NCBI GenBank assembly: GCA_022510785.1
Contig: JAFLSV010000001.1
Coordinates: 122,591-186,590, forward strand
Direction of reading: 5' to 3'
Length of the DNA: 64,000 nt
DNA from: Desulfovibrionaceae bacterium
Lineage (GTDB): Bacteria; Desulfobacterota; Desulfovibrionia; Desulfovibrionales; Desulfovibrionaceae
Numbering within the stretch: the first letter of the stretch is position 1; each line of letters opens with the position of its first letter. Both the position numbers and the translations under genes were made by a program. Below the pieces are notes generated by a model, which did not search any database, was not told the origin of the DNA, and worked only from the letters and a program-made list of their open reading frames with translations. This document shows positions 2,671-16,252 of this stretch, piece by piece.

Positions 2671-3870
2671 ATGGCGGTATATGTCCGCAGCCGCATGTTT
2701 TTTTCCGTAAGCATCCTCGTCATGCTGGCAGCTGGCGCCTATGTCTCATGCCGCCTGCTTGCGGGGCGTCAGCTTCCTCTGTGGCTGATCATCGCGCTGA
2801 CCTGTTTCATTCTGCTGATTTCCCAGACCATTTCCCTGATGCGGCTCCTCATTATTTCCGCGGCAAAGATACCCTTTGCCTGGCTGCGGGTGGGGGGATT
2901 CATGGCCTGCCTGTTCACAACCGCGGTCAGTCTGCTCGTTGTCCGCGACCTTGTTCTCATCCTGTTGTGGATTGGGCAGCGCATGCCCGGAGCGGCCGCG
3001 ACGGCCGCACTGGCAGCCTGGCTGAACACGCCGCGTGCGGATGCCTGTCTGCTGGGCGGCAGTGTGCTTGCAGCCGCTTTTTTCATGTGGCGTACCCTGA
3101 GGGTACCACGCATCCGCGAAGTGGAAATTTCCATGGACGCTCTGCCGCATGAACTTGACGGACTGCGGCTTGCCCAGCTCAGTGATTTGCATATGGGGTC
3201 AACCTTCAACGGCCAGTGGCTGCGCGAGGTTGTGGAACGCACCAACGCCATGCAGCCGGATTTTGTGCTGCTTACCGGCGATCTGGTGGACGGCAGGCCC
3301 GCCGTGCTTGGTGAGGACATGAAAGCGCTTGGCACGTTGAAGGCCCGATATGGCGTGCTGATAACCGTGGGCAATCATGAATATTATTCCGGCCTCATGC
3401 CCTGGGTGCAAACCTGGCGGCAGCAGGGGCTTACAGTCCTGCTCAATGAACATCGCGTGTTCATGATCAACGGTGTTCCCCTGCTGATCGCCGGGGTGAC
3501 CGACCCTAGCGCCGCGCGCTTTTCTGGCCTGAGCCTGCCTGATCCCGAACAGGCCAAGGCGGGCTCGCCACACGCCTTCAGCATTCTTATGGCCCATCAG
3601 CCCAAAGACGCGGCCCGTCATGCTGCCCTTGGCTATACGCTGCAAGTGTCCGGTCACACCCACGGCGGTCAGTATGTTTTCATGTTTCCCTTGGTCTCAT
3701 GGCTGAACCGGGGATACCGTTCCGGCCTGTATGAGGTGCAGGGCATGAAATTATACGTCAGTCCCGGCACTGGCCTGTGGGGCTATGTGCCCATGCGCGT
3801 GGGCTCCCCTTCCGAGATCAGCATTCTGACCCTGACCTGTCCCCGCCCTGCCGGTGGCGATCGCAAGTAG
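2671..3870 (+). CDS. Membrane-anchored metallophosphoesterase
   Basis: N-terminal TM segments; LAQLSDLHMGS, LLTGDLVDG, TVGNHEYY, VSGHTHGGQ metallophosphatase motifs. Confidence 0.9.
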   Translation: MAVYVRSRMFFSVSILVMLAAGAYVSCRLLAGRQLPLWLIIALTCFILLISQTISLMRLLIISAAKIPFAWLRVGGFMACLFTTAVSLLVVRDLVLILLWIGQRMPGAAATAALAAWLNTPRADACLLGGSVLAAAFFMWRTLRVPRIREVEISMDALPHELDGLRLAQLSDLHMGSTFNGQWLREVVERTNAMQPDFVLLTGDLVDGRPAVLGEDMKALGTLKARYGVLITVGNHEYYSGLMPWVQTWRQQGLTVLLNEHRVFMINGVPLLIAGVTDPSAARFSGLSLPDPEQAKAGSPHAFSILMAHQPKDAARHAALGYTLQVSGHTHGGQYVFMFPLVSWLNRGYRSGLYEVQGMKLYVSPGTGLWGYVPMRVGSPSEISILTLTCPRPAGGDRK

Positions 3871-3930
3871 TCTGAAAAGGCCAGCGCGCAGCGTTTCACC
3901 ATCAGGCGTCCGGTTTTGGCGCCATCTGGA

Positions 3931-5613
3931 TCAGCGGGTCAGCTTGCGGAACTTCAGGCGATGCGGCGTGTCCGCATCTTTGCCAAGACGTTTGCGCCGA
4001 TCTTCCTCATACTCGCTGTAGTTGCCCTCGCAAAAACTCACCCGGCCTTCATCCTCAAAGGCAAGAATGTGGGTGGCGATGCGATCCAGAAACCAGCGAT
4101 CATGGCTGACCACCAGCACGCAGCCCGCAAAGTTTTCCAGGGCGTCTTCAAGCGCGCGCATGGTGTTGACGTCGATATCGTTGGTGGGTTCGTCCAGCAG
4201 AAGCACGTTGGCGCCGGATTTGAGCATCCGGGCCAGGTGGACGCGGTTGCGCTCGCCCCCGGACAGCACATCCACCTTTTTCTGCTGATCGGCCCCCGTG
4301 AAATTGAAGCGGGAGCAGTAGGCGCGGGCATTGATCTCCTGTCCGCCCAGCCTGATGACGTCGCGCCCCTCGCTCAGAATTTCGTATACCGTCTTGCCGG
4401 GAGTCAGGGAGTCGCGGCCCTGATCCACATAGGCAAAACGGACGGTCTCGCCTACCATGAGCTGACCCTCATCAGGCTGTTCCTGTCCGGTCAGCATTTT
4501 GAACAGCGTGGTCTTGCCCGCCCCGTTGGGGCCGATAATACCCACAATGGCACCGGGCTGTACGATAAACTCCGCCTTGTCCATAAGAATTTTGTCACCC
4601 ATGGCCTTGGACAGTCCATGGGCTTCAATGACGGTCTTCCCCAGGCGAGGCCCGGGCGGAATATAAATTTCCAAATCCGGGGCCAGCCGCTCGCTTTCGT
4701 GGCTGAGCATGGCCTCATAGGCATGAATGCGGGCCTTGCCCTTGGCGTGCCGGCCCTTGGGCGACATTCTGATCCATTCCAGCTCGCGAAGCAGCGTTTT
4801 GCGGCGTTCCGCATCGCTTTTTTCTTCCTGGGCCAGGCGTTTTTCCTTCTGCTCCAGCCACGACGAATAGTTCCCCTTCCAGGGAATGCCGCGCCCCCGA
4901 TCCAGTTCCAGTATCCAGCCTGCCACGTTATCCAGAAAATACCGGTCATGGGTGACGGCTATGACGGTACCCGCAAAATTCTGAAGGTAGCGCTCAAGCC
5001 AGGCCACGGACTCCGCATCCAGATGGTTAGTGGGTTCGTCAAGCAGCAGGATATCGGGATTCTGGAGCAGCAGACGGCACAGGGCCACACGGCGGCGTTC
5101 CCCCCCGGAAATGACAGATACCGGCGTCTCGGCGGGCGGGCAGCGCAGAGCGTCCATGGCCATTTCCAGGCGCGCGTCCAAATCCCAGGCATTAAGGGCG
5201 TCCATGCGCTCCTGCACCTTGCCCTGCCGTTCAATGAGGGCATCCATCTCGTCCGCGTCCATGGGTTCGGCAAAGCGGGCGTTGATGTCATTGAATTCGC
5301 GAACCAGGGTCACGACTTCCCGCACGCCCTCCTCCACCACCTCGCGCACGGTGCGCGTTTCATCCACCAGAGGTTCCTGCTCCAGATACCCTATGGTGTA
5401 GCCCGGCGCCACGACAACCTCGCCGTCAAAGGCTTTGTCCACACCCGCCATAATCTTGAGCAGTGACGATTTGCCCGCGCCATTAAGGCCCAAAACACCA
5501 ATTTTGGCTCCGTAGAAATAGCCGAGGGATATATCCTTGAGAACTTCTTTCTGACCGTGCCGTTTGGTTACACGGTTCATGGAATAAATGACTTTATCCG
5601 GTTCGCTGCTCAT
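3931..5613 (-). CDS. ettA: ABC-F ATPase, energy-dependent translational throttle protein EttA
   Basis: Two ABC domains (GLNGAGKSS, GPNGAGKTT; ISGGERRRVAL, LSGGERNRVHLARM); start chosen at MSSEPDKVIYSMNRV. Confidence 0.92.
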   Translation of the reverse strand: MSSEPDKVIYSMNRVTKRHGQKEVLKDISLGYFYGAKIGVLGLNGAGKSSLLKIMAGVDKAFDGEVVVAPGYTIGYLEQEPLVDETRTVREVVEEGVREVVTLVREFNDINARFAEPMDADEMDALIERQGKVQERMDALNAWDLDARLEMAMDALRCPPAETPVSVISGGERRRVALCRLLLQNPDILLLDEPTNHLDAESVAWLERYLQNFAGTVIAVTHDRYFLDNVAGWILELDRGRGIPWKGNYSSWLEQKEKRLAQEEKSDAERRKTLLRELEWIRMSPKGRHAKGKARIHAYEAMLSHESERLAPDLEIYIPPGPRLGKTVIEAHGLSKAMGDKILMDKAEFIVQPGAIVGIIGPNGAGKTTLFKMLTGQEQPDEGQLMVGETVRFAYVDQGRDSLTPGKTVYEILSEGRDVIRLGGQEINARAYCSRFNFTGADQQKKVDVLSGGERNRVHLARMLKSGANVLLLDEPTNDIDVNTMRALEDALENFAGCVLVVSHDRWFLDRIATHILAFEDEGRVSFCEGNYSEYEEDRRKRLGKDADTPHRLKFRKLTR

Positions 5614-6008
5614 ACATGTTCTTCGGGGTTTGAGGTGTATCCGGCGTGTCCACTGGCACCCGGTGCGGGCAAGGACATTATAGTATGGCACATGCCTTTG
5701 CCTTGTCCAGTCATAATCCTGTCGAAATGTTCACTCTTTTGGTGGTATCCATGCCCAGTTCCCGTGAACTTTCCCCCAATTTTCCTGAAATTATCACTGA
5801 AAGAATGCTTCCGGCTGCCGGGGAAAAAGAAATCGGTTGAAAACGGGTGCAAGTCTGGTCATACACTTGACATGGACAGATCTCGCGGGTAAGTTTTTTT
5901 CCAGAGGAAATATCGACGCCCGCTTCTCGCAGCCCAGGCACCATCCCCGGAGGCTTTCCAGAGGTTGGGCATCTTTTTTTTGCATTTTATTTTTTTGAGG
6001 AACAGGCC

Positions 6009-6488
6009 ATGAGCACTCCTATTTCCGTCCAGGGCTATCGGAAACTTGAGCAGGAACTTGAGCAGCTGAAAAAAGAACGGCCCGCCGTCATTCAGGCCAT
6101 CAAGGAAGCCCGCGAGGAAGGCGATCTCAAGGAAAACGCCGGATATGACGCGGCCCGTGAACGCCAGGGGTTTCTGGAAGCGCGCATCGCCTATATTGAA
6201 AGCCAGCTGCCCCAGTACAATGTCATTGATCTTGACATCTTGCGCGGTGACAAGGTCATTTTTGGCGCGACTGTCCATGTGGAGGACATAGACTCCGGCG
6301 AGGAAAAGCAGTTCACCCTGCTGGGCCCGGATGAGGCCGATTATGCCAAGGGCTCCATTTCCATTAATTCACCGGTAGGCAGGGCTCTTTTGGGCCATGA
6401 AGTGGGTGACGAAGTGAGCATTGATATTCCCAAGGGCCGGGTCACCTACGAAATTACCAACATTGAATTCCACGGCGTGCGCGACTGA
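6009..6488 (+). CDS. greA: Transcription elongation factor GreA
   Basis: GYRKLEQELEQLKKERP...EGDLKENAGYDAARERQGFLEARI; S/P-x-G-R-ALLGHEVGDEV. Confidence 0.95.
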   Translation: MSTPISVQGYRKLEQELEQLKKERPAVIQAIKEAREEGDLKENAGYDAARERQGFLEARIAYIESQLPQYNVIDLDILRGDKVIFGATVHVEDIDSGEEKQFTLLGPDEADYAKGSISINSPVGRALLGHEVGDEVSIDIPKGRVTYEITNIEFHGVRD

Positions 6489-6515
6489 TTGGCGCGCCGC
6501 GCCTGCCTGCATGGC

Positions 6516-6547
6516 ACCGGGGGCCGCTTTTCCAGCCCCCGGTTTTT
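6516..6547 (+). terminator. Rho-independent terminator downstream of greA
   Basis: ACCGGGGGC...GCCCCCGGT stem followed by TTTT. Confidence 0.75.
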
Positions 6548-6600
6548 CATGGTCATGGGCTGTCCTGCCGCGCTCGCATGCGCGCCTTTTGATCTTCCGC

Positions 6601-7887
6601 CTAGTACATACGCAGCAGCTTGGGCAGGAACGTAATCACATCAGGAACAAGGATCACGAAAATAACAAGGCAAATCAGCACACAGATATAGGGCATGGCT
6701 CCCCGGGCCACCCGTTCCAGCGGTAAATTGGAAAGATTCATGGAAATAAACAGATTTACGCCCAATGGAGGCGTAAGAAGCGCCACTTCGTTGGTCAGTA
6801 CCCAGAATACGCCGAAGAACACCGGATCAATGCCAACGCTCTTGATGATGGGCAGAAACACAGGCGCCAGAACGACAATAGTGGCAAGCGTTTCCATGAA
6901 CATGCCAAGAAAGAGCAGCAGGCAGCCGATGAGCAGGAGGATGACATAGGGATTGGTCGTCAGCTGCACCATAAGCTGCGCCAGATGCTGGGGGATCTGG
7001 TACATGGTCAGGAAGCGGCCGAAAATTGTCGAAACCCCAACAACGATGAGGATAGTCCCCGTCGAAATGTTGGCAAGCTTCATGGCAGAGAATATCTGAC
7101 TGAAATTCAGCTGCTTCGTAATAAAAATACCGACAAAAAGCGCATACCAGACAGCCACAACGGACGCTTCCACAGGGGTGCACATACCGCTGTAAATGCC
7201 GCCGAGAATAACGACAGGGGCCAGAAGCGACCAGATATTATGCCTCAGCGCCCGCAAAAATTCGGCCATGGTATAGGACTGCATATTGCCACGGTAGCCG
7301 GATCGTCTGGCGATGACATACGCGGTTGTCATGAGGCAGGCGCCAACGAGAAAACCCGGCACAAATCCGGCGGTGAACAGTGCGGAGATCGAAACGTTGG
7401 CAATGATGCCATAAACGAGCATGGGGTTGCTTGGCGGAATAAGAATGCCGAGCGTGCCGCCCGTAGCGGAGACGCCTGCGGCATATTCAGGCGAATAGCC
7501 CTTTTTTATCATGGATGGAATCATGATGCTGCCCATGGCCGCCACGGTTCCAGGGCCGGAACCGATCATGGACGCAAAGAACATGCAGCCCAGAATAGTG
7601 ACCATGCCAAGGCCGCCGCGCACCCGCCCCACAATCATGGACGCGACGTCCACAATCTGTGCCGCCATGCCGCCCTTGTCCATGAGCGCTCCGGCAAAGA
7701 CGAAGCCCACGACCGCGAGCAGCGGGAACATATCGGCAACCTTCAGAAGGTCGATCATGATAAGGGAAAGAGGAATATCGCTGAAAAGCAGGACGATGAT
7801 GGACGACATGCCCAGCGCGACAAATATTGGCGTGCCAATGGCGAGCAGAGAAGCCAGGGCGACCCAGATCAGGACTTCGAGTTCCAT
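6601..7887 (-). CDS. dctM: TRAP transporter large permease (DctM)
   Basis: 428 aa hydrophobic; GTPIFVALG, PPSNPMLVYG, TPVEASVVAVWYALFVG typical of DctM. Confidence 0.92.
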   Translation of the reverse strand: MELEVLIWVALASLLAIGTPIFVALGMSSIIVLLFSDIPLSLIMIDLLKVADMFPLLAVVGFVFAGALMDKGGMAAQIVDVASMIVGRVRGGLGMVTILGCMFFASMIGSGPGTVAAMGSIMIPSMIKKGYSPEYAAGVSATGGTLGILIPPSNPMLVYGIIANVSISALFTAGFVPGFLVGACLMTTAYVIARRSGYRGNMQSYTMAEFLRALRHNIWSLLAPVVILGGIYSGMCTPVEASVVAVWYALFVGIFITKQLNFSQIFSAMKLANISTGTILIVVGVSTIFGRFLTMYQIPQHLAQLMVQLTTNPYVILLLIGCLLLFLGMFMETLATIVVLAPVFLPIIKSVGIDPVFFGVFWVLTNEVALLTPPLGVNLFISMNLSNLPLERVARGAMPYICVLICLVIFVILVPDVITFLPKLLRMY

Positions 7888-8423
7888 CAGCTCACCTCCT
7901 CGCTGGGGATCACGATTTTATCCCTGCCAAGCAGGATACGTGCCCACCGCTCGATGACCCGGATGGCCTGAAGCGCGAACGCAAGGGGAACAGCGGCGTT
8001 AATATAGCGCATATCAAGCATAAGCGCGCCGGAAATCATGGGGCGGCGGCTCATGCCGATGATGAACTCCGTGCCTACATACAGCACGATGAGGGCAAAG
8101 GTGAGCCATATCACGTCGGTGATGAAAAGCAGAAGGATTTGCATGAAACGGGGAAGCAGCTTCAACTGAGCGGTCACTCTGATATGGGCGTTTTTATGCG
8201 TGGCAAGGCTGGCTGCGAAATACACCAGATAGAGAAAGGTAAAACGGCATACTTCTTCACTCCAGGCAATGGAGTGCCCGCCAACATAACGAAAGAGAAC
8301 CTGAATCATGAGCAGTGTGACTATGACAGCAAGCAGCACACAGCAAAGGTACTCTTCCAGGTTATCCCAAAATTTATAAAGCTTAGCCGACATGGGTGTC
8401 TCCTGTGCAAAAGCCGTCCTCAA
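7887..8423 (-). CDS. dctQ: TRAP transporter small permease (DctQ)
   Basis: 178 aa, WSEEVCRFTFLYLVYFAASLATHKNAHIRV motif; overlaps dctM start. Confidence 0.88.
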   Translation of the reverse strand: MRTAFAQETPMSAKLYKFWDNLEEYLCCVLLAVIVTLLMIQVLFRYVGGHSIAWSEEVCRFTFLYLVYFAASLATHKNAHIRVTAQLKLLPRFMQILLLFITDVIWLTFALIVLYVGTEFIIGMSRRPMISGALMLDMRYINAAVPLAFALQAIRVIERWARILLGRDKIVIPSEEVS

Positions 8424-8672
8424 AGAATGTTTTACCCGGTTTACCCACGAGATGAGCTCAATAGAGCTTGAGTGCCTTCAGTGAAACGCCATCCTTATTT
8501 TTTTAGAACCAGGACGAATGCCCCGTTTTTCCGCTATAAAAAAACCGCAAAATGCCGTTCGGACTGTTTCCAAAATTTCGTATATCCGTGATATGCTCAA
8601 GCGGCTTGCGTCAGGCTGAAAAAACGCGCGCGGGCATCCATGTGCTGCGTGGACAGCCCCAAGAAAGAACAA

Positions 8673-8699
8673 GGCTCGGAGAACCAGGTTCTCCGAGCC
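8673..8699 (-). terminator. Hairpin between dctP and dctQ
   Basis: Perfect 12-bp stem GGCTCGGAGAAC-CAG-GTTCTCCGAGCC just past the dctP stop; minus strand continues TTGTTCTTTCTT. Confidence 0.65.
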
Positions 8700-8708
8700 C
8701 CATATGAG

Positions 8709-9728
8709 TTACGGACGGGTGATATTGAGCGTTTTCAGGAAGGCATCAAGAAGAGTAATATCACCGATCTTGTCATAGAACTCCGGCCAGACGGACATGG
8801 CGAGCTTTTGCCATTCAGCTTCATCGGGAAGCTCCCTGGTAATCTCAACGCCCTTGGCGGTCAGTTCCTTGACAAGATCTGCCTCCATTTCGGCGATCAT
8901 CTGGCGGTTATTGGCAGTGGCGAGCTTGCCGCCTTCGAGAATGGCCTTCTGAACATCGGCAGGCTGCCTGTCAAACCATTCCGCGTTCACAACCACAGGC
9001 CCGACCCACATCTTGTAATGCACGTCGGTAATATACTTCTGCACTTCTTCAAACTTGTTGGAAGCGAACACGGTATACGGATTTTCCTGACCGTCGATGA
9101 CCTTTTGCTGGAGCGCGTTGAACAGTTCGTCCCAGGCCAGCGGAGTCGGTTCGCATCCCCAGGCGCGGAAGGTGGCGACCATAATGGGATTGCTGGGAAC
9201 CCTGATCTTCAGACCCTTGATATCGTTGAGATTTTTCACGGGACGAACATTATTGCTCAACACACGGAAGCCCTGAACGAGCCAGGCCACCGCCATGTTG
9301 CCGGATTCGGCGATCATGCGCTTGTTAATTTCGTCCCAGTTCTGGTCAATGCACTTGTAGGCGTCTTCCGCGCTGGCAAAGATATAGGGAAGGTCGAACA
9401 CGCCCATGGAAGGCGAGAAGACAGAGGCGTTATTGACGGCGAGCGAGCCGATCTGGACGACCTGATTCTGAATATCCTGGAAGGTGCGTTCCTCGCCGCC
9501 GAGCTGGCTGCCGGGATAAATCTGGACTTCGACCTGCCCGTTGGTGGCCTTTTCGACATATTCCTTAAAATCGGTGGCCGCCGCGTGGTGCGGTTCTTTA
9601 ACCATGGCGGCGGAGCTGTGGCTGTAGCGCATGATGATTTTGTCAGCGGCGGAGGCGCCGGCGGGCAGACAGAAAATGCCGGCGCAGAGCGTGATGAGGG
9701 AACATTTGATCAGAAAATTGCGGCTCAT
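8709..9728 (-). CDS. dctP: TRAP transporter substrate-binding protein (DctP family)
   Basis: Signal peptide, YSHSSAAMVKEPHHAAATDFKEYVEKATNGQVEVQIYPGSQLGGEERTFQDIQ; VIDGQENPYTVFASNKFEEVQKYIT. Confidence 0.92.
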   Translation of the reverse strand: MSRNFLIKCSLITLCAGIFCLPAGASAADKIIMRYSHSSAAMVKEPHHAAATDFKEYVEKATNGQVEVQIYPGSQLGGEERTFQDIQNQVVQIGSLAVNNASVFSPSMGVFDLPYIFASAEDAYKCIDQNWDEINKRMIAESGNMAVAWLVQGFRVLSNNVRPVKNLNDIKGLKIRVPSNPIMVATFRAWGCEPTPLAWDELFNALQQKVIDGQENPYTVFASNKFEEVQKYITDVHYKMWVGPVVVNAEWFDRQPADVQKAILEGGKLATANNRQMIAEMEADLVKELTAKGVEITRELPDEAEWQKLAMSVWPEFYDKIGDITLLDAFLKTLNITRP

Positions 9729-9829
9729 GCTGTTCTCCTGGGTTTATAGGGTTGGTTGAAAAAGGAAGGAAACCGATCATCCCAAGGCAGGCCTAAAAAT
9801 TCCATCAAGAAATTTTTTTTACGATAAAG

Positions 9830-9841
9830 GAAAACGTTTGC
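9830..9841 (+). promoter_or_regulatory. Candidate LacI-family operator 1 (GAAAACGTTTGC), upstream of dctP
   Basis: Exact reverse complement of the 12-mer at 10030..10041; AAACGTTT core; lies in the dctP-lacI divergent intergenic region. Confidence 0.6.
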
Positions 9842-10029
9842 AGTGTCAATATCAAAAGAAAAAATGACGTGTCTGGATAACTATCACACTGAAATACTTT
9901 ATTTTTTATGTATTTCTCAAAAATTTTTACCCTGTGTCCGCTTTTCCTTTCCGCCTTTGTCTTGACTTATTTGTTCAATCATTTACAATTCAAAGAAAAA
10001 GTTACCCTAACATATTGAAAAAACTCAAG

Positions 10030-10041
10030 GCAAACGTTTTC
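10030..10041 (+). promoter_or_regulatory. Candidate LacI-family operator 2 (GCAAACGTTTTC), abutting the lacI-type start codon
   Basis: Exact inverted copy of operator 1, immediately before ATG at 10042. Confidence 0.6.
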
Positions 10042-11070
10042 ATGAAACGGCGCGCAACCCTCAAAGATGTCGCTGATCTGGCCGGTGTCTCCCTGTCCAC
10101 CGTCTCCCGCGCTCTCCGCATGCCCGAGCTTTTCACCCAGGAGACGGTGGACAGGGTCTGCAGCGCCGCGGCAAAACTCTCGTATGTGCCCAATGCCGCA
10201 GCCAGCACACTTTCCCGGCGGCGCTCCAACACCATAGGCATCATTATGCCTTCCCCGGAATATTCCGCTTTTGCGGGCAACCTGCTTGCCATCCAGCGGG
10301 TATGCAGCGAACGGAATTATTCCTTCAAGCTGGAGTTTACGGATTTTTCTCCTGAAAAAGAACTGATGGCGCTCAAGCATTTTGAGGAACACCGCGTTGA
10401 AGGCGCCATCCTGGTGGGCATTGATGCGGAGCACATTCCCCTGTTAAAACAGCTCGATCACAACGGCATCAGGAACATTCTGCTTTGGGAAAAAAGCGAA
10501 AATATTTCCAACTACATCGCCATCGACAACGAGCGCGCCACCCTGCAGGGACTGGAATATCTCTACAATCTGGGGCACAGGCGGATCGCCTATATGCTTG
10601 GGCCCTATTCGTGCACGCTCCGCAACCGTGAAAAACAAAACGCCTATGTAAAGTTCATCCGTGAACACGATTTGGAACTGGACGCCGACCTCATCACGTC
10701 TCAGCCGCCCACGTTTTTCATGGGCAAGGAGGCTATGCGCCGTTTTCTGAAACTGGGCAATCCTCCGACCGCGGCGTTCTGCGTCAATGATAATCTGGCT
10801 ATCGGAGCCGTCCGCGCCGTTCGCGAGGCCGGGCTCCGGGTTCCCGAAGATATTTCCATCTGCGGTTTTGATGACATTTCCATCTCCGCGTACCTCGATA
10901 TCCCCTTAACAAGCATACGAACCCCCATCCTTGAAATGGGCGAGATTGCGGCAAGTCTGCTCATTGAAGCCATTGAAAACGACAGTGACCTGAACGTCCA
11001 GTATCTTCTCGATACTCAGCTTGTGGTTCGGGGAACCTGCGCCAGAGCCCCGCGGGAGGAACAGGCATGA
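10042..11070 (+). CDS. LacI-family transcriptional regulator
   Basis: HTH MKRRATLKDVADLAGVSLSTVSRALR; periplasmic-binding-like domain IGIIMPSPEYSAFAGNLL; CGFDDISISAYLDIPLTSI. Confidence 0.93.
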   Translation: MKRRATLKDVADLAGVSLSTVSRALRMPELFTQETVDRVCSAAAKLSYVPNAAASTLSRRRSNTIGIIMPSPEYSAFAGNLLAIQRVCSERNYSFKLEFTDFSPEKELMALKHFEEHRVEGAILVGIDAEHIPLLKQLDHNGIRNILLWEKSENISNYIAIDNERATLQGLEYLYNLGHRRIAYMLGPYSCTLRNREKQNAYVKFIREHDLELDADLITSQPPTFFMGKEAMRRFLKLGNPPTAAFCVNDNLAIGAVRAVREAGLRVPEDISICGFDDISISAYLDIPLTSIRTPILEMGEIAASLLIEAIENDSDLNVQYLLDTQLVVRGTCARAPREEQA

Positions 11071-12374
11071 CTATAACACGCGTTGCTGTTGCATCCCTCG
11101 GGGCAAAAACCATAGACTCTCCCATCTGCAGCGGAAAAATCGCTGACGATGCGCGCATCGAGCTTTCTCTGGGGCCCAATATATTCTCGGATTTGACCGA
11201 CTACCACAGCTATTCTTTCGAACTTGGCGGGGCGAGGGAAAAAATTTATTTTGATCCGGACGCGAGCAGATGCGCCATCGTGACCTGCGGCGGCCTGTGC
11301 CCCGGCCTGAATGACATCATCCAGTCGCTTGTCTGGACGGCGTGCCACAATTACGGTGTTCGTTCCGTTATCGGCATCAGGCATGGATTGCAGGGTTTCA
11401 TCCCCGATAACGGGCTGGAGCCCATGGAACTGGATCCCGGCAAAGTCTTCCAGATCCATGAACTTGGCGGCTCCATCCTTGGCACCTCGCGCGGGCCTCA
11501 ACCAACGGATGTCATCGTCGACAGGCTTGAGCGGCTTAATATAAACATGCTGTTCATCATAGGCGGCGATGGAACCATGCACGCCGCGCAGGACATCTAT
11601 CATGAAATAACCCGCAGGGGCCGCGCCATCTCCGTGACAGGAATTCCCAAAACTGTTGACAATGACATCAATTTCATTCCCAAATCCTTTGGCTTTGAAA
11701 CAGCGGTGGAAAAGGCTTCTGAAGCGATACGCTGCGCGTATATCGAAGCGACGAGCGTCTTGAACGGCGTGGGCCTGGTCAAGCTCATGGGCAGGGAATC
11801 CGGCTTCATCGCGGCGAATGCGTCACTTGCCATTCGCGAGGCCGATTTCGTTCTTGTTCCCGAAGTCCCTTTCACCATGGAGGGCAAACACGGCCTTCTT
11901 CAGGCCCTTGAAAACAGGCTTATTCAAAACAGGCATGCGGTTATCGTCGTCGCCGAAGGGGCCGGCCAGGATCTTTTCCAGACGACAAACAAGTGCGATG
12001 CCTCCGGCAACAGGAAGCTGGAAGATATTGCCGCCTTCATGCTGGCACGGTTCAAAACCTACTTCGCGGAGCGCGGCATTCCCTATTATCCGAAATACTT
12101 CGACCCGGGCTATCTTATTCGCGCAACACCGGCCAATACCTACGACAGGCAGTATTGCGGAAATCTGGGCCAGAACGCCGTTCATGCCGCCTTCAGCGGG
12201 CGAACGGGAATGGTGGTCGCACGGATCATGGACAAAATCGTCCATGTTCCGCTTGAGCTTGTCACCGCCAGGCGCAGGGTCATCAACCCCCACTCTGATT
12301 TGTGGCGGGCAGTCATGGAAATGACGGGACAAGGAGATCTGAATGATCGGGAATCCTGTCCCGGTACTGTATAA
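11067..12374 (+). CDS. ATP-type 6-phosphofructokinase family protein (long PFK clade)
   Basis: CGGLCPGLNDII, GTSRGPQ, IGGDGTMHAA, GIPKTVDNDI, MGRESGFIA motifs. Confidence 0.88.
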   Translation: MTITRVAVASLGAKTIDSPICSGKIADDARIELSLGPNIFSDLTDYHSYSFELGGAREKIYFDPDASRCAIVTCGGLCPGLNDIIQSLVWTACHNYGVRSVIGIRHGLQGFIPDNGLEPMELDPGKVFQIHELGGSILGTSRGPQPTDVIVDRLERLNINMLFIIGGDGTMHAAQDIYHEITRRGRAISVTGIPKTVDNDINFIPKSFGFETAVEKASEAIRCAYIEATSVLNGVGLVKLMGRESGFIAANASLAIREADFVLVPEVPFTMEGKHGLLQALENRLIQNRHAVIVVAEGAGQDLFQTTNKCDASGNRKLEDIAAFMLARFKTYFAERGIPYYPKYFDPGYLIRATPANTYDRQYCGNLGQNAVHAAFSGRTGMVVARIMDKIVHVPLELVTARRRVINPHSDLWRAVMEMTGQGDLNDRESCPGTV

Positions 12375-12388
12375 CAATGGAGCGTGCT

Positions 12389-13207
12389 ATGAACGAACGT
12401 GCTTTGGCAGAACTCAAAAACCTGAGCAATGAGGGACGCAGGCATCTCATCAGGATGATCGGCAAGGTCGGCGTTGGGCATGTGGGGGGGGCTCTGTCTG
12501 TCCTTGATGTCATGGTGTATCTTTATTTTCGGGAACTGAATCTTCGCCCGGACGATGCGCGCTGGTCCGAGCGTGACCGCTTTGTCATGTCCAAGGGACA
12601 TGCGGGCCCCGCTCTGTACACCGTGCTTGCCATGCGCGGCTTTTTTGGCCTTGACAGGCTGGAAACGCTCAACAGCCTGGGCACGAATCTTCCCAGCCAC
12701 TGCGACATGAAGCGCACCACAGGCGTCGATATGACCGCCGGCTCGCTGGGACAGGGCCTTTCCGCCGCTGTCGGCATGGCGTTGGCCGCGCGCATGGATA
12801 AAAAAAGCTATCGCGTCTACTGCATCGTCGGAGATGGTGAAATGCAGGAAGGTCAGATATGGGAAGCCGCCATGTATGCAGGTTCTCAACAGTTGGACAA
12901 CCTTGTGGTTATTGTTGACGATAACGGCATGCAGATTGACAACTATACTGACGCAATCAATAGTGTGCGTCCAATTGATAAACGCCTTGAATCATTTGGA
13001 TTTGAGACAATATCCATTGATGGGCATGATTTTAATCAGATGGAATTTGCCTTTTATAAGGCAAAAACAATAAAAAAACATCCAACAGCCATCATCATGT
13101 CCACGGTCAAAGGCAAAGGCTTTACTTTCTGTGAAGGAAAGATCGGCTCTCATAACATGGCCGTCAGTTCTGAAGATCTTGCCGGCGCACTGAACGAACT
13201 TGCCTAA
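12389..13207 (+). CDS. Transketolase, N-terminal (TPP-binding) subunit
   Basis: GHVGGALSVLDVMVYLYF, SKGHAGPALY, GSLGQGLSAAVGMALA, VGDGEMQEGQIWEAAM. Confidence 0.92.
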   Translation: MNERALAELKNLSNEGRRHLIRMIGKVGVGHVGGALSVLDVMVYLYFRELNLRPDDARWSERDRFVMSKGHAGPALYTVLAMRGFFGLDRLETLNSLGTNLPSHCDMKRTTGVDMTAGSLGQGLSAAVGMALAARMDKKSYRVYCIVGDGEMQEGQIWEAAMYAGSQQLDNLVVIVDDNGMQIDNYTDAINSVRPIDKRLESFGFETISIDGHDFNQMEFAFYKAKTIKKHPTAIIMSTVKGKGFTFCEGKIGSHNMAVSSEDLAGALNELA

Positions 13208-13217
13208 GGAGCGAACC

Positions 13218-14162
13218 ATGCTCGAAGAACTTGAAATGCGTAACGTCTATGGCGAGATGATGGTGGAACTTGCTGCCAGGGATCCCCGCATTGTGTCCCT
13301 CCAGGCCGATCTGACCGGCGGTCACGGGATGAAAGGTTTTCAGCAGGCCTATCCTGACCGCCACTTCAATATTGGCGTTGCCGAAGCCAACATGGTGGGC
13401 GTGGCAGCCGGGATGGCAGCATGCGGCAAGGTTCCGTTCGTTCATTCCTTCGCCACTTTTTCCACCAGGCGCTGCTTCGACCAGATCGCCATTTCCGTCT
13501 GCTATGCCGGGCTGAACGTCAAAATCGTGGGTTCCGATCCCGGTGTGGGCGCGGAGCTGAACGGCGGCACGCACATGGCGCTGGAAGACACCGGGATCAT
13601 GCGCACGCTGCCCGGAATGACCATTTTTGAACCCGTCGATAATACCCAGCTGAGGCAGGCCCTTCCGCAAATTGTCGATTACGACGGCCCGGTCTATATC
13701 AGGCTTTTCCGCAAGAAGCCTGAAAAAATTTTTGGCGAGGGCTATACCTTCCAGTGGGGCAAGGCCGATGTGCTCCAGGAAGGAACGGACGTCACGCTCA
13801 TCGCCTCCGGGGTCTGCGTCGCGGAATCCCTTGAAGCGGCGAGTCTGCTTGAGGCCGATGGCGTTTCCGCGCGGGTGCTGGCCGTGCACACCATCAAACC
13901 CATTGATACGGAAAGCATCGTGAAATCGGCACAGCTCACCGGAGCAGTCGTGACCGCGGAAAACCACAACATTATCAACGGGCTGGGCAGTGCTGTTGCC
14001 GAGGTTCTCGCGGAAAATCATCCGGTTCCCATGGAACGGATCGGGGCGCGCGACCGCTTTGGCGAAGTCGGCAAGGCCGCTGACCTCAAAAAGGTTTTGG
14101 GCATCACCGCGGCCGATATCGCCTGCGCCGCAAAAAAAGCCCTTTCCCGCAAGGCTTTGTGA
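13218..14162 (+). CDS. Transketolase, C-terminal subunit
   Basis: NIGVAEANMVGVAAGMAACGKVPFVHSFATFSTRRCFDQI; own AAGGAG ribosome-binding site upstream of ATG. Confidence 0.92.
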   Translation: MLEELEMRNVYGEMMVELAARDPRIVSLQADLTGGHGMKGFQQAYPDRHFNIGVAEANMVGVAAGMAACGKVPFVHSFATFSTRRCFDQIAISVCYAGLNVKIVGSDPGVGAELNGGTHMALEDTGIMRTLPGMTIFEPVDNTQLRQALPQIVDYDGPVYIRLFRKKPEKIFGEGYTFQWGKADVLQEGTDVTLIASGVCVAESLEAASLLEADGVSARVLAVHTIKPIDTESIVKSAQLTGAVVTAENHNIINGLGSAVAEVLAENHPVPMERIGARDRFGEVGKAADLKKVLGITAADIACAAKKALSRKAL

Positions 14163-14173
14163 AGGAGGCTGGC

Positions 14174-15064
14174 ATGCTGTCCATAGGTGTTATCGGACTT
14201 GGAATCATGGGCCGCCGATGCGCCCTGAAACTGAAAGAACACGGTTTTCAAATTGCCGGCTATGATGCGTTTCCCGCGGCCTCGCGCAAAGCCGCCGAAG
14301 AGGGTATCGCGCTGCTGCCCACGCCGGCCGCCGTTGCCTCTGCTTCCGATGTCGTTATCATGTTCGTCCCCGGCCCCGAGGAAAGCATCTCCGTCGGCCT
14401 TGGACGCGACGGCCTCATCGAAGGCATTTCCGAAGCCAAGATCGTCCTCAACATGAGCACGGTTGATCCCGCCACCAATGAAAGGCTTGCCGCCGCCTTT
14501 GCCGAAAAAAAGGCATACGTTCTGGACAGTCCCGTCCTCGGCTCTCCCGAAGGCATCGGGCATTGGGCCTTTGCCATTGGCGGCGAGGAAGAGGCGTATG
14601 CGCGGATCAGGCATGTGCTTCTTCCGCTGTGCGGCAGTGAAGACAGGATATTCCGCACCGGAGGCATAGGAAGCGCCAACAAGCTGAAGCTTCTCAACAA
14701 TATGTTACTCGGCACGATTAATGCTGGCATTTCGGAAATTTTTGCGCTGGCGGAACACATGGGGCTTTCTCCCCAGACGCTGTTCCGCGCCGCCAAGGCC
14801 TGCAAGGGCCGTGTGCTCAGCCTGGCCTACGAGCAGTTTGCCGATCGGACAGTTCGCGATGAGTATGAAGATCCCATTTTCTCTCTGGCCATGCTGATCA
14901 AAGACAACAAACTCTGTCTTGATATGGCGCGGGCCAATAACGCCCCGCTCATCGTCGCAACGGCTGTGGACTACCTGCACCGCATTGCGGCGGCTCACCC
15001 CGGCTATGGCAGCCTTGATTCGTCCATCGCGTGGAAGAGTGTCAAGGATTCCTGGGAAAAGTAA
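14174..15064 (+). CDS. NAD(P)-dependent 3-hydroxyisobutyrate dehydrogenase-family oxidoreductase
   Basis: IGVIGLGIMGRRCALKL, STVDPATNERLA, GSANKLKLLNNMLL motifs; start taken at MLSIGVIG. Confidence 0.87.
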   Translation: MLSIGVIGLGIMGRRCALKLKEHGFQIAGYDAFPAASRKAAEEGIALLPTPAAVASASDVVIMFVPGPEESISVGLGRDGLIEGISEAKIVLNMSTVDPATNERLAAAFAEKKAYVLDSPVLGSPEGIGHWAFAIGGEEEAYARIRHVLLPLCGSEDRIFRTGGIGSANKLKLLNNMLLGTINAGISEIFALAEHMGLSPQTLFRAAKACKGRVLSLAYEQFADRTVRDEYEDPIFSLAMLIKDNKLCLDMARANNAPLIVATAVDYLHRIAAAHPGYGSLDSSIAWKSVKDSWEK

Positions 15065-15088
15065 CCACATCGTTATGGAGGAAAAACT

Positions 15089-16252
15089 ATGCCTTTCTCC
15101 CATCTGACTGTTAAAAAGATCGTACATGGCATTGGCTCTGTCAAAGACGCGCCAAAGGAAGTAAAGGCTCTCGGAGGTTCCCGCGTCCTCATTGTAACCG
15201 ATCCCGGCCTTGCCCAGCTCGGCGTTCAGAAAGTTCTTGAAGACGCCCTCACCGAAGGCGGCATCGCATGGGAACTTTTTGCCAAGGCGGAACTCGAACC
15301 GTCCATGGACTCCATTCAGGCCTGCGCTGACGCGGCGAAGAACTTCGGCGCCGATGTGCTTATCGGCTTCGGCGGCGGAAGCGCCCTTGATTCCGCCAAG
15401 GCCGCTTCCGTTCTTCTTTCCAATGAAGGCCCCATTGAAAAATATTTTGGTATGCAGAAGGTTCCCTGCCCCACACTTCCCAAAATCCTCATCCCCACCA
15501 CGGCGGGCACGGGCAGTGAAATGACCAATATCGCCGTTCTTGCCGACACGAAGAACGGCGGCAAGCAGGGGGTGTGCTCCGACTATATGTACGCCGACAC
15601 CGTGCTGCTTGATCCTTCGCTCACTGTGGGCCTTCCCCCCCGCGTGACCGCCATCACCGGTGTGGACGCCTTCGTTCACGCCATGGAATCCTATTGCGGC
15701 ATCGCGGCGACACCCTTCACGGACGCGCTCGACCTCGCCGCCATGAGGCTTATCTGCGCCAATATCCGTCAGGCCTATGCCAACGGGCAAAACCTTGAAG
15801 CCCGTCAGGCCATGCTCTACGGTTCCGCCCTTGCCGGCATGGGCTTCGGCAATACGCAGAATGGCATCATCCACGCCATCGGCACCACACTTCCCGTGGA
15901 ATGTCATATTCCGCACGGCCTGGCCATGGCCATCTGCGGGCCCTTCTCGGTGGGCTTCAACTACATCGCCAATCCCGACAAGTACGCCCTGGTCGCCGAC
16001 CTGCTTCGCGGCGCCGACCGCGCCGCTTCCATGAGCGTGCTTGAGCGCGCCGCTGATGTGGAAGCCGCCTTCCGTGCCCTGCTTGCTGACCTCAATATCG
16101 AGACCGGGCTCAGCAGGTACCGGGTGAAACGCGAAGACCTGCCCGCATGCGCCGACCGGGCGTTTGCCGCCAAGCGTCTGCTCAACAACAACCCTCGCAC
16201 GGCCAGCCGTGACCAAATCCTGGCGCTGCTGGAAGCCAATTTTGAAGTCTGA
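15089..16252 (+). CDS. Iron-containing alcohol dehydrogenase
   Basis: GFGGGSALDSAKAAS, PTTAGTGSEMTNIAVL, DAFVHAMESY, HAIGTTLPVECHIPHGLAMAI metal-site motifs. Confidence 0.92.
   Translation: MPFSHLTVKKIVHGIGSVKDAPKEVKALGGSRVLIVTDPGLAQLGVQKVLEDALTEGGIAWELFAKAELEPSMDSIQACADAAKNFGADVLIGFGGGSALDSAKAASVLLSNEGPIEKYFGMQKVPCPTLPKILIPTTAGTGSEMTNIAVLADTKNGGKQGVCSDYMYADTVLLDPSLTVGLPPRVTAITGVDAFVHAMESYCGIAATPFTDALDLAAMRLICANIRQAYANGQNLEARQAMLYGSALAGMGFGNTQNGIIHAIGTTLPVECHIPHGLAMAICGPFSVGFNYIANPDKYALVADLLRGADRAASMSVLERAADVEAAFRALLADLNIETGLSRYRVKREDLPACADRAFAAKRLLNNNPRTASRDQILALLEANFEV

Follow-up and report, generated by a model that had tools for sequence, protein, structure and literature searches.

What might a Desulfovibrionaceae bacterium degrade with an operon that joins a LacI-family regulator, a split transketolase and a sulfoacetaldehyde reductase? 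The question is raised by positions 6601–16252 of a 64,000-nt stretch of contig JAFLSV010000001.1 (the window). The nine open reading frames (ORFs) found there comprise a minus-strand dctMQP set for a tripartite ATP-independent periplasmic (TRAP) transporter and, divergent from it, a tight plus-strand operon, lacI-pfk-tkN-tkC-hibdh-sarD, assigned through NCBIfam and Pfam matches far above chance. We lean, with modest confidence, towards a catabolic operon under LacI repression, directed at a sulfonated sugar or polyol; its transketolase (TK) would release sulfoacetaldehyde, and the host would be a Desulfovibrionaceae bacterium that respires sulfonates.

An earlier note, made from the letters of this DNA, had drawn the locus with the same ORFs, strands and junctions, and all nine ORFs are present as it placed them. 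It was also correct that the cluster has no isomerase, aldolase or kinase other than the phosphofructokinase (PFK) homologue. Three genomes of the family carry the gene combination, which the note did not recognise; we found no description of it in the literature searched. Its assignment of the last gene to the iron-dependent alcohol dehydrogenases (Fe-ADHs) holds at the level of the family; the protein need no longer be anonymous, being SarD by the NCBIfam equivalog NF050025. The genome that contains the window (G000; 2.2 Mb in 55 contigs) appears to group with Desulfovibrio, Bilophila, Mailhella and Taurinivorans bacteria, judging by SarD, the HpsG/IslA-type enzymes and the gene content of relatives.

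The operon ends in the only sarD of its genome

The equivalog model for sulfoacetaldehyde reductase SarD, NF050025, has a cut-off of 700 bits, and the window protein scores 700.2 bits. A genome search found this copy to be the only SarD of G000. It is 33–38% identical to SqwF and lies in a clade with taurine-type SarDs (support 100), not in the SqwF clade. In relatives, sarD usually follows ald-tpa (L035, L036, L039, L042 and L045) or, in L034, lies between tpa and the TRAP genes. The taurine cluster of G000, on contig C3 (L059, 8926–10560), is a complete ald-tpa-TRAP set whose TRAP permeases have a DctP on either side (the two DctPs are 58% identical to each other); behind tpa there are just 255 bp and no sarD. 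The sole sarD, in the LacI/TK operon, must therefore serve taurine too, unless another reductase does. A scan for sigma-54-like sites, which would link sarD to taurine control, found none before the gene, and was also blank at the taurine clusters, hence uninformative.

The SarD of a second operon carrier, G193, pairs with a sulfoacetate-cluster SarD (support 99), apart from the taurine-type SarD of the window. This topology suggests that the two were recruited independently beside the same lacI-pfk-tkN-tkC genes, or that one replaced the other. The same core with two separate SarD lineages is the strongest single argument for sulfoacetaldehyde as a product of the pathway. In a different setting, L044 of G062 (3578–8259), SarD is followed by a gene resembling CoA-acylating aldehyde dehydrogenases and two resembling CoA-ligase subunits, a cluster like those that convert sulfoacetate to isethionate.

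The split transketolase has a sulfofructose-type head-group motif

Among solved structures, the two halves of a Carboxydothermus hydrogenoformans split transketolase (6yak/6yaj) come closest to the tkN and tkC products. In TKs that act on phosphosugars, the residues RSFHR are reported to orient the phosphate, and the 6-deoxy-6-sulfofructose TK has RAFDR at these positions (PMC11659671). In the alignment, the head-group residues of window tkC (R8, G35, F78, D107 and R165) read RGFDR, as do those of G193; G073, the third operon carrier, has RAFDR, and the housekeeping TK of G000 has RSFHR. A scan of named genomes with tkC, which may omit near relatives, placed among its top matches sulfo-TK-type clusters in which the TK lies beside an RpiB-type SqwI, an SqvD-like isomerase, an Fe-ADH or SqwD/SqwKL-like genes; these clusters were assigned by homology to L060/L066 and by gene order. 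Of the sulfo-TK-type loci, nine could be scored, and every one of them has RAFDR. No apulose kinase or isomerase linked to the TK, as for AptBC, is in the operon.

Aligned through tkC, 68 split TKs fall into two active-site classes, a canonical one (SHxGxxxGEDGxTHQ) and a non-canonical one (GSDPGxxAxxNGGTHM) in which His is changed to Asp and Asp to Asn; many members of the latter have no assigned function.

The core operon is shared by three genomes

A family search with HIBDH, the beta-hydroxyacid dehydrogenase encoded by hibdh, covered 149 genomes and then 288 with an alignment; only G000, G073 and G193 proved to carry the operon. In G073, dctP-dctP-dctQ-dctM diverge from lacI-pfk-tkN-tkC-hibdh and a short-chain dehydrogenase/reductase (SDR) gene, with identities to the window of 52–83%. 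The locus of G193, which belongs to another genus, reads hibdh-TPP enzyme-sarD-lacI-pfk-tkN-tkC-SDR-dctP. The enzyme between its hibdh and sarD (L147, 10403–12103) is an acetolactate-synthase-like thiamine diphosphate (TPP) enzyme, and the sulfoacetaldehyde acetyltransferase model is absent from its listed matches.

Other HIBDH relatives were set aside: that of G240 has no adjoining TK, and those of G133, G286 and one of G032 have LacI neighbours but no TK, and belong to different systems. A further G032 locus (L012, 4–10439) carries the uncharacterised combination TRAP, LarA-like racemase, RpiB-like isomerase, PdxA, split TK (RAFDR) and HIBDH.

PFK and HIBDH are diverged family members

A housekeeping PFK is present in all ten genomes searched, which rejects the operon PFK as the cell's sole glycolytic PFK. 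A second PFK occurs, among these ten, only in the three operon carriers; it splits from the housekeeping enzymes with support 100 and keeps ordinary PFK catalytic motifs. A second, diverged copy confined to operon carriers indicates a dedicated paralogue. Judged by sequence, it may act either on fructose-6-phosphate derived from xylulose-5-phosphate or, in the manner of SqiK, on sulfofructose.

HIBDH stays below every NCBIfam equivalog cut-off, and its closest models are HIBADH and tartronate-semialdehyde reductase. The YihU-type sulfolactaldehyde reductase that the earlier note had considered can be dismissed, as the protein scores 108 bits against a cut-off of 348 for NF012005.

A related transporter belongs to another sarD-ending operon

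Window DctM is 83% identical to DctM of the orthologous G073 locus and 66% to that of a sarD-ending operon in G127. Window DctP is 48% identical to its counterpart in the same G127 operon and about 34% to the taurine TRAP DctP. It keeps the anion-binding Arg/Arg/Asn set (R156, R177 and N217 of IseP), and its pocket is common to G193 and one G073 protein (G073-P2) and nearly the same in G127. Its PDB neighbours, 24gg and 24gh, were deposited beside a TRAP series for 2,3-dihydroxypropane-1-sulfonate (DHPS) and gave no ligand information.

The G127 operon (L037, 660–10524) recurs in G103 (L038, 7237–16564); both genomes are of the same genus as that of the window. Its order is TRAP, IolC/DUF2090 kinase-aldolase, zinc-dependent alcohol dehydrogenase, IolO-like epimerase, gluconate-5-dehydrogenase-like SDR, DeoC and sarD, and the G127 SarD scores 738 bits with NF050025. 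Neither genome has Tpa, just a distant aminotransferase at 34%. DUF2090-type aldolases normally yield malonate semialdehyde, which has a carboxylate where sulfoacetaldehyde has its sulfonate. By this likeness, a route through a 5-sulfo-pentulose phosphate is conceivable in G127 and G103, and their operon is possibly a second undescribed route to sulfoacetaldehyde.

The genome encodes two candidate carbon–sulfur lyases

G000 encodes two HpsG/IslA-type glycyl-radical enzymes above the 1000-bit cut-off, each truncated at a contig end. A G070 lyase that adjoins an IseP-like protein is 73% identical to one of them, which makes isethionate cleavage likely. On contig C43 (L048, 1–8297), an HpsG-type enzyme is divergent from a series that encodes a class II aldolase, a tartronate-semialdehyde-reductase-like protein, a permease, a DUF1537-like kinase and a second HIBDH; the neighbours of this aldolase resemble a four-carbon acid cluster.

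Proposed pathway and alternative explanations

From these features we infer a substrate, an order of reactions, roles for HIBDH and PFK, and sulfite respiration. An anionic sulfonate would be imported by the TRAP system and converted to a terminally sulfonated 2-ketose, by HIBDH (probably aided by enzymes encoded elsewhere) or by an unlinked isomerase. The split TK would then pass the two-carbon ketol group, which bears no sulfonate, to glyceraldehyde-3-phosphate; the products would be xylulose-5-phosphate, destined for central metabolism, and sulfoacetaldehyde, which SarD would reduce with NADH to isethionate. A glycyl-radical sulfite-lyase of G000 would cut the isethionate, and the sulfite would be respired. 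The PFK paralogue would take up extra fructose-6-phosphate or a sulfo-ketose. The sulfonated sugar at which the earlier note had guessed gains from the position of sarD at the end of the operon, the sulfofructose-type TK motif and the presence of a related TRAP transporter in a different operon of the genus that likewise ends in sarD. The two lyases of G000 and the paired putative LacI operators count in its favour too; a carboxylate sugar acid still competes with it.

Several observations weigh against the sulfonate pathway. The SarD margin over the cut-off is just 0.2 bits, and the G193 SarD, at 585 bits, falls under it. Among 56 split TKs that lack a recognised sulfo-TK context, 12 also have the head-group combination of A or G plus D, so the motif fits but is not specific. 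In the TK tree, the three operon loci form their own clade (support 95) that is not nested in the sulfo-TK groups, which rules out a place within SqwGH, the enzymes with which the earlier note had proposed to compare them. The GH31 sulfoquinovosidase YihQ was found in neither G000 nor four relatives, in searches whose positive controls worked; the sulfoquinovose (SQ) isomerase SqvD was found neither in the cluster nor genome-wide, in a search without a positive control; and the cluster has no SqwI (PF02502), the single RpiB of G000 being on another contig. G073 has no sarD in its locus, no SarD-class match genome-wide at E ≤ 1e-120 and no tpa. The sister TK locus, L074, has neighbours that, read by eye, are 2-hydroxyacid dehydrogenase-like and glycerate-kinase-like. 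Lastly, since taurine use needs SarD too, sarD could have moved into the operon with no meaning for the pathway. As SqwI, YihQ and a nested TK were looked for and not found, we do not file the operon as a member of the sulfo-TK pathway, although it would work like one.

The chief rival, which G073 and the carbon-acid-type neighbours at L074 keep open but which we consider rather unlikely, is that the substrate is a carboxylated sugar acid (such as a C4–C6 keto-aldonate or uronate). TK would then free an aldehyde acid, such as tartronate semialdehyde or glyoxylate, for reduction by HIBDH, and sarD would either have moved from the taurine genes or encode a reductase of aldehyde acids. That TRAP proteins mostly bind carboxylates, that HIBDH is nearest to the HIBADH and tartronate-semialdehyde reductase models, that the G073 operon does without sarD, and that TK and HIBDH occur in G032 together with PdxA, RpiB and LarA-like genes all agree with it, as does L074 itself. 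Against it, SarD-class reductases of different lineages stand beside the same genes in two genomes, no glycerate kinase or hydroxypyruvate reductase is recognised in the operon, and the TK motif is of the type seen in all scored sulfo-TK loci. An accidental association, in which a sugar operon reads through into a moved taurine-pathway sarD, would explain why sarD is single in G000 and gone from the taurine cluster, and why its clade includes taurine-type SarDs. We judge this very improbable: the 24-bp gap upstream of sarD has no promoter-like site facing the gene, the G193 cluster has an independent SarD, and LacI control of sarD would impair taurine use unless both pathways share an intermediate.

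Bifurcated sulfoglycolysis of 6-deoxy-6-sulfofructose would give PFK the part of SqiK and an unlinked class II aldolase that of SqiA; HIBDH would reduce sulfolactaldehyde to DHPS for the HpsG lyase, and a parallel TK–SarD branch would lead to isethionate. In its favour, SqiK is a PF00365 protein and SqiA a class II aldolase (PMC9594981), bifurcated clusters with TK and transaldolase are known (PMC11659671), the PFK of the operon is not the housekeeping copy but a diverged paralogue, and a class II aldolase adjoins an HpsG-type lyase in G000. The scheme is nevertheless improbable, given an HIBDH far under the sulfolactaldehyde reductase cut-off, aldolase neighbours that look like a four-carbon acid cluster, and neither YihQ nor, in the uncontrolled search, an SQ isomerase.

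Locus layout and putative operators

The junctions of the operon are short: lacI and pfk overlap by 4 bp, pfk and tkN are 2 bp apart, tkN and tkC 10 bp apart, tkC and hibdh overlap by 4 bp, and the 24 bp between hibdh and sarD contain a GGAGG ribosome site. In the 313-bp divergent intergenic region, GAAAACGTTTGC occurs twice, flanking the divergent promoters of both units. The pattern GAAAACGYWTKC has 2 matches in the window against 0.09 expected, an optimistic expectation because the pattern was built partly from the tested sites. Similar putative operators are seen in L010 and L147, two in the divergent region of G073 and one before hibdh in G193.

Table 1. Genes and putative regulatory sites of the locus, in window coordinates
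Feature	Position	Strand	Basis
dctM, TRAP large permease	6601–7887	−	TIGR00786 375 bits, PF06808
dctQ, TRAP small permease	7887–8393	−	PF04290; 67% to G073
dctP, TRAP substrate-binding protein	8709–9728	−	PF03480
Putative LacI operator 1 (GAAAACGTTTGC)	9830–9841	+	Overlaps promoter-like site of dctP (9849–9821, −)
Putative LacI operator 2 (GAAAACGTTTGC)	10030–10041	−	Directly before lacI
lacI, LacI-family regulator	10042–11070	+	PF00356 and PF13377; 55% to G073, 50% to G193
pfk paralogue	11067–12374	+	PF00365; NF005301 591 bits; catalytic motifs kept
tkN, N-terminal half of split transketolase	12377–13207	+	PF00456; PDB 6yak 1.5e-75
tkC, C-terminal half of split transketolase	13218–14162	+	PF02779/PF02780; PDB 6yaj 6e-89
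hibdh, beta-hydroxyacid dehydrogenase	14159–15064	+	PF03446/PF14833; 52% to G073, 44% to G193
sarD, sulfoacetaldehyde reductase (Fe-ADH family)	15089–16252	+	NF050025 700.2 bits

Comparison with known systems

Under anaerobic conditions, the demonstrated route from sulfosugars to hydrogen sulfide is cross-feeding: Bilophila-like bacteria respire the isethionate or DHPS that fermenters release (PMC11659671, PMC13219744). We tentatively propose that here one anaerobe may import the intact sulfonated sugar or polyol, perhaps a compound new as a substrate of bacteria, cut its carbon chain with a dedicated TK and use its own carbon–sulfur cleavage for sulfite respiration, with no fermenting partner, the TRAP system and PFK/HIBDH replacing SqvD and SqwI. 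If true, a sulfonate respirer equipped to cut the carbon chain itself would reduce the cross-feeding chain to a single cell, and would point to sulfonates beyond free sulfoquinovose as direct sources of hydrogen sulfide. Recruitment of sarD offers a testable rule for locating further sulfonate pathways.

The sulfo-TK pathway (SqwGH, SqwI and SqwF; Clostridium sp. MSTE9, Faecalicatena and Caproiciproducens) shares with the window a split TK with RAFDR-type residues, a sulfoacetaldehyde-reducing Fe-ADH in the cluster and xylulose-5-phosphate as the expected carbon product. By contrast, the window has no YihQ, SqvD or cluster-borne SqwI, uses TRAP rather than ATP-binding cassette or major facilitator superfamily uptake, carries SarD in place of SqwF, adds a PFK paralogue and HIBDH, lies in a host with its own carbon–sulfur lyases and has TKs in a separate clade. 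Taurine respiration in Bilophila wadsworthia (Tpa-SarD-IslAB) has its SarD, IslA-type lyase and tpa also in G000, where, however, sarD is in the LacI/TK operon and not behind tpa. Sulfo-Embden–Meyerhof–Parnas pathway 2 (sulfo-EMP2; SqiK and SqiA) likewise has a PF00365 kinase in a sulfosugar-like operon, a likeness of superfamily membership only; the window cluster lacks SqvD and SqiA, and its PFK is a putative kinase, predicted from sequence.

It has been called unusual for a single bacterium to combine sulfosugar cleavage with desulfonation (PMC12421959). The tandem sulfofucolytic–sulfolactate sulfolyase pathway of Paracoccus wurundjeri resembles the proposed one in that carbon–carbon and carbon–sulfur cleavage of a sulfosugar occur in one organism, but does so with an Entner–Doudoroff route and SuyAB, whereas G000 would use a transketolase and glycyl-radical lyases.

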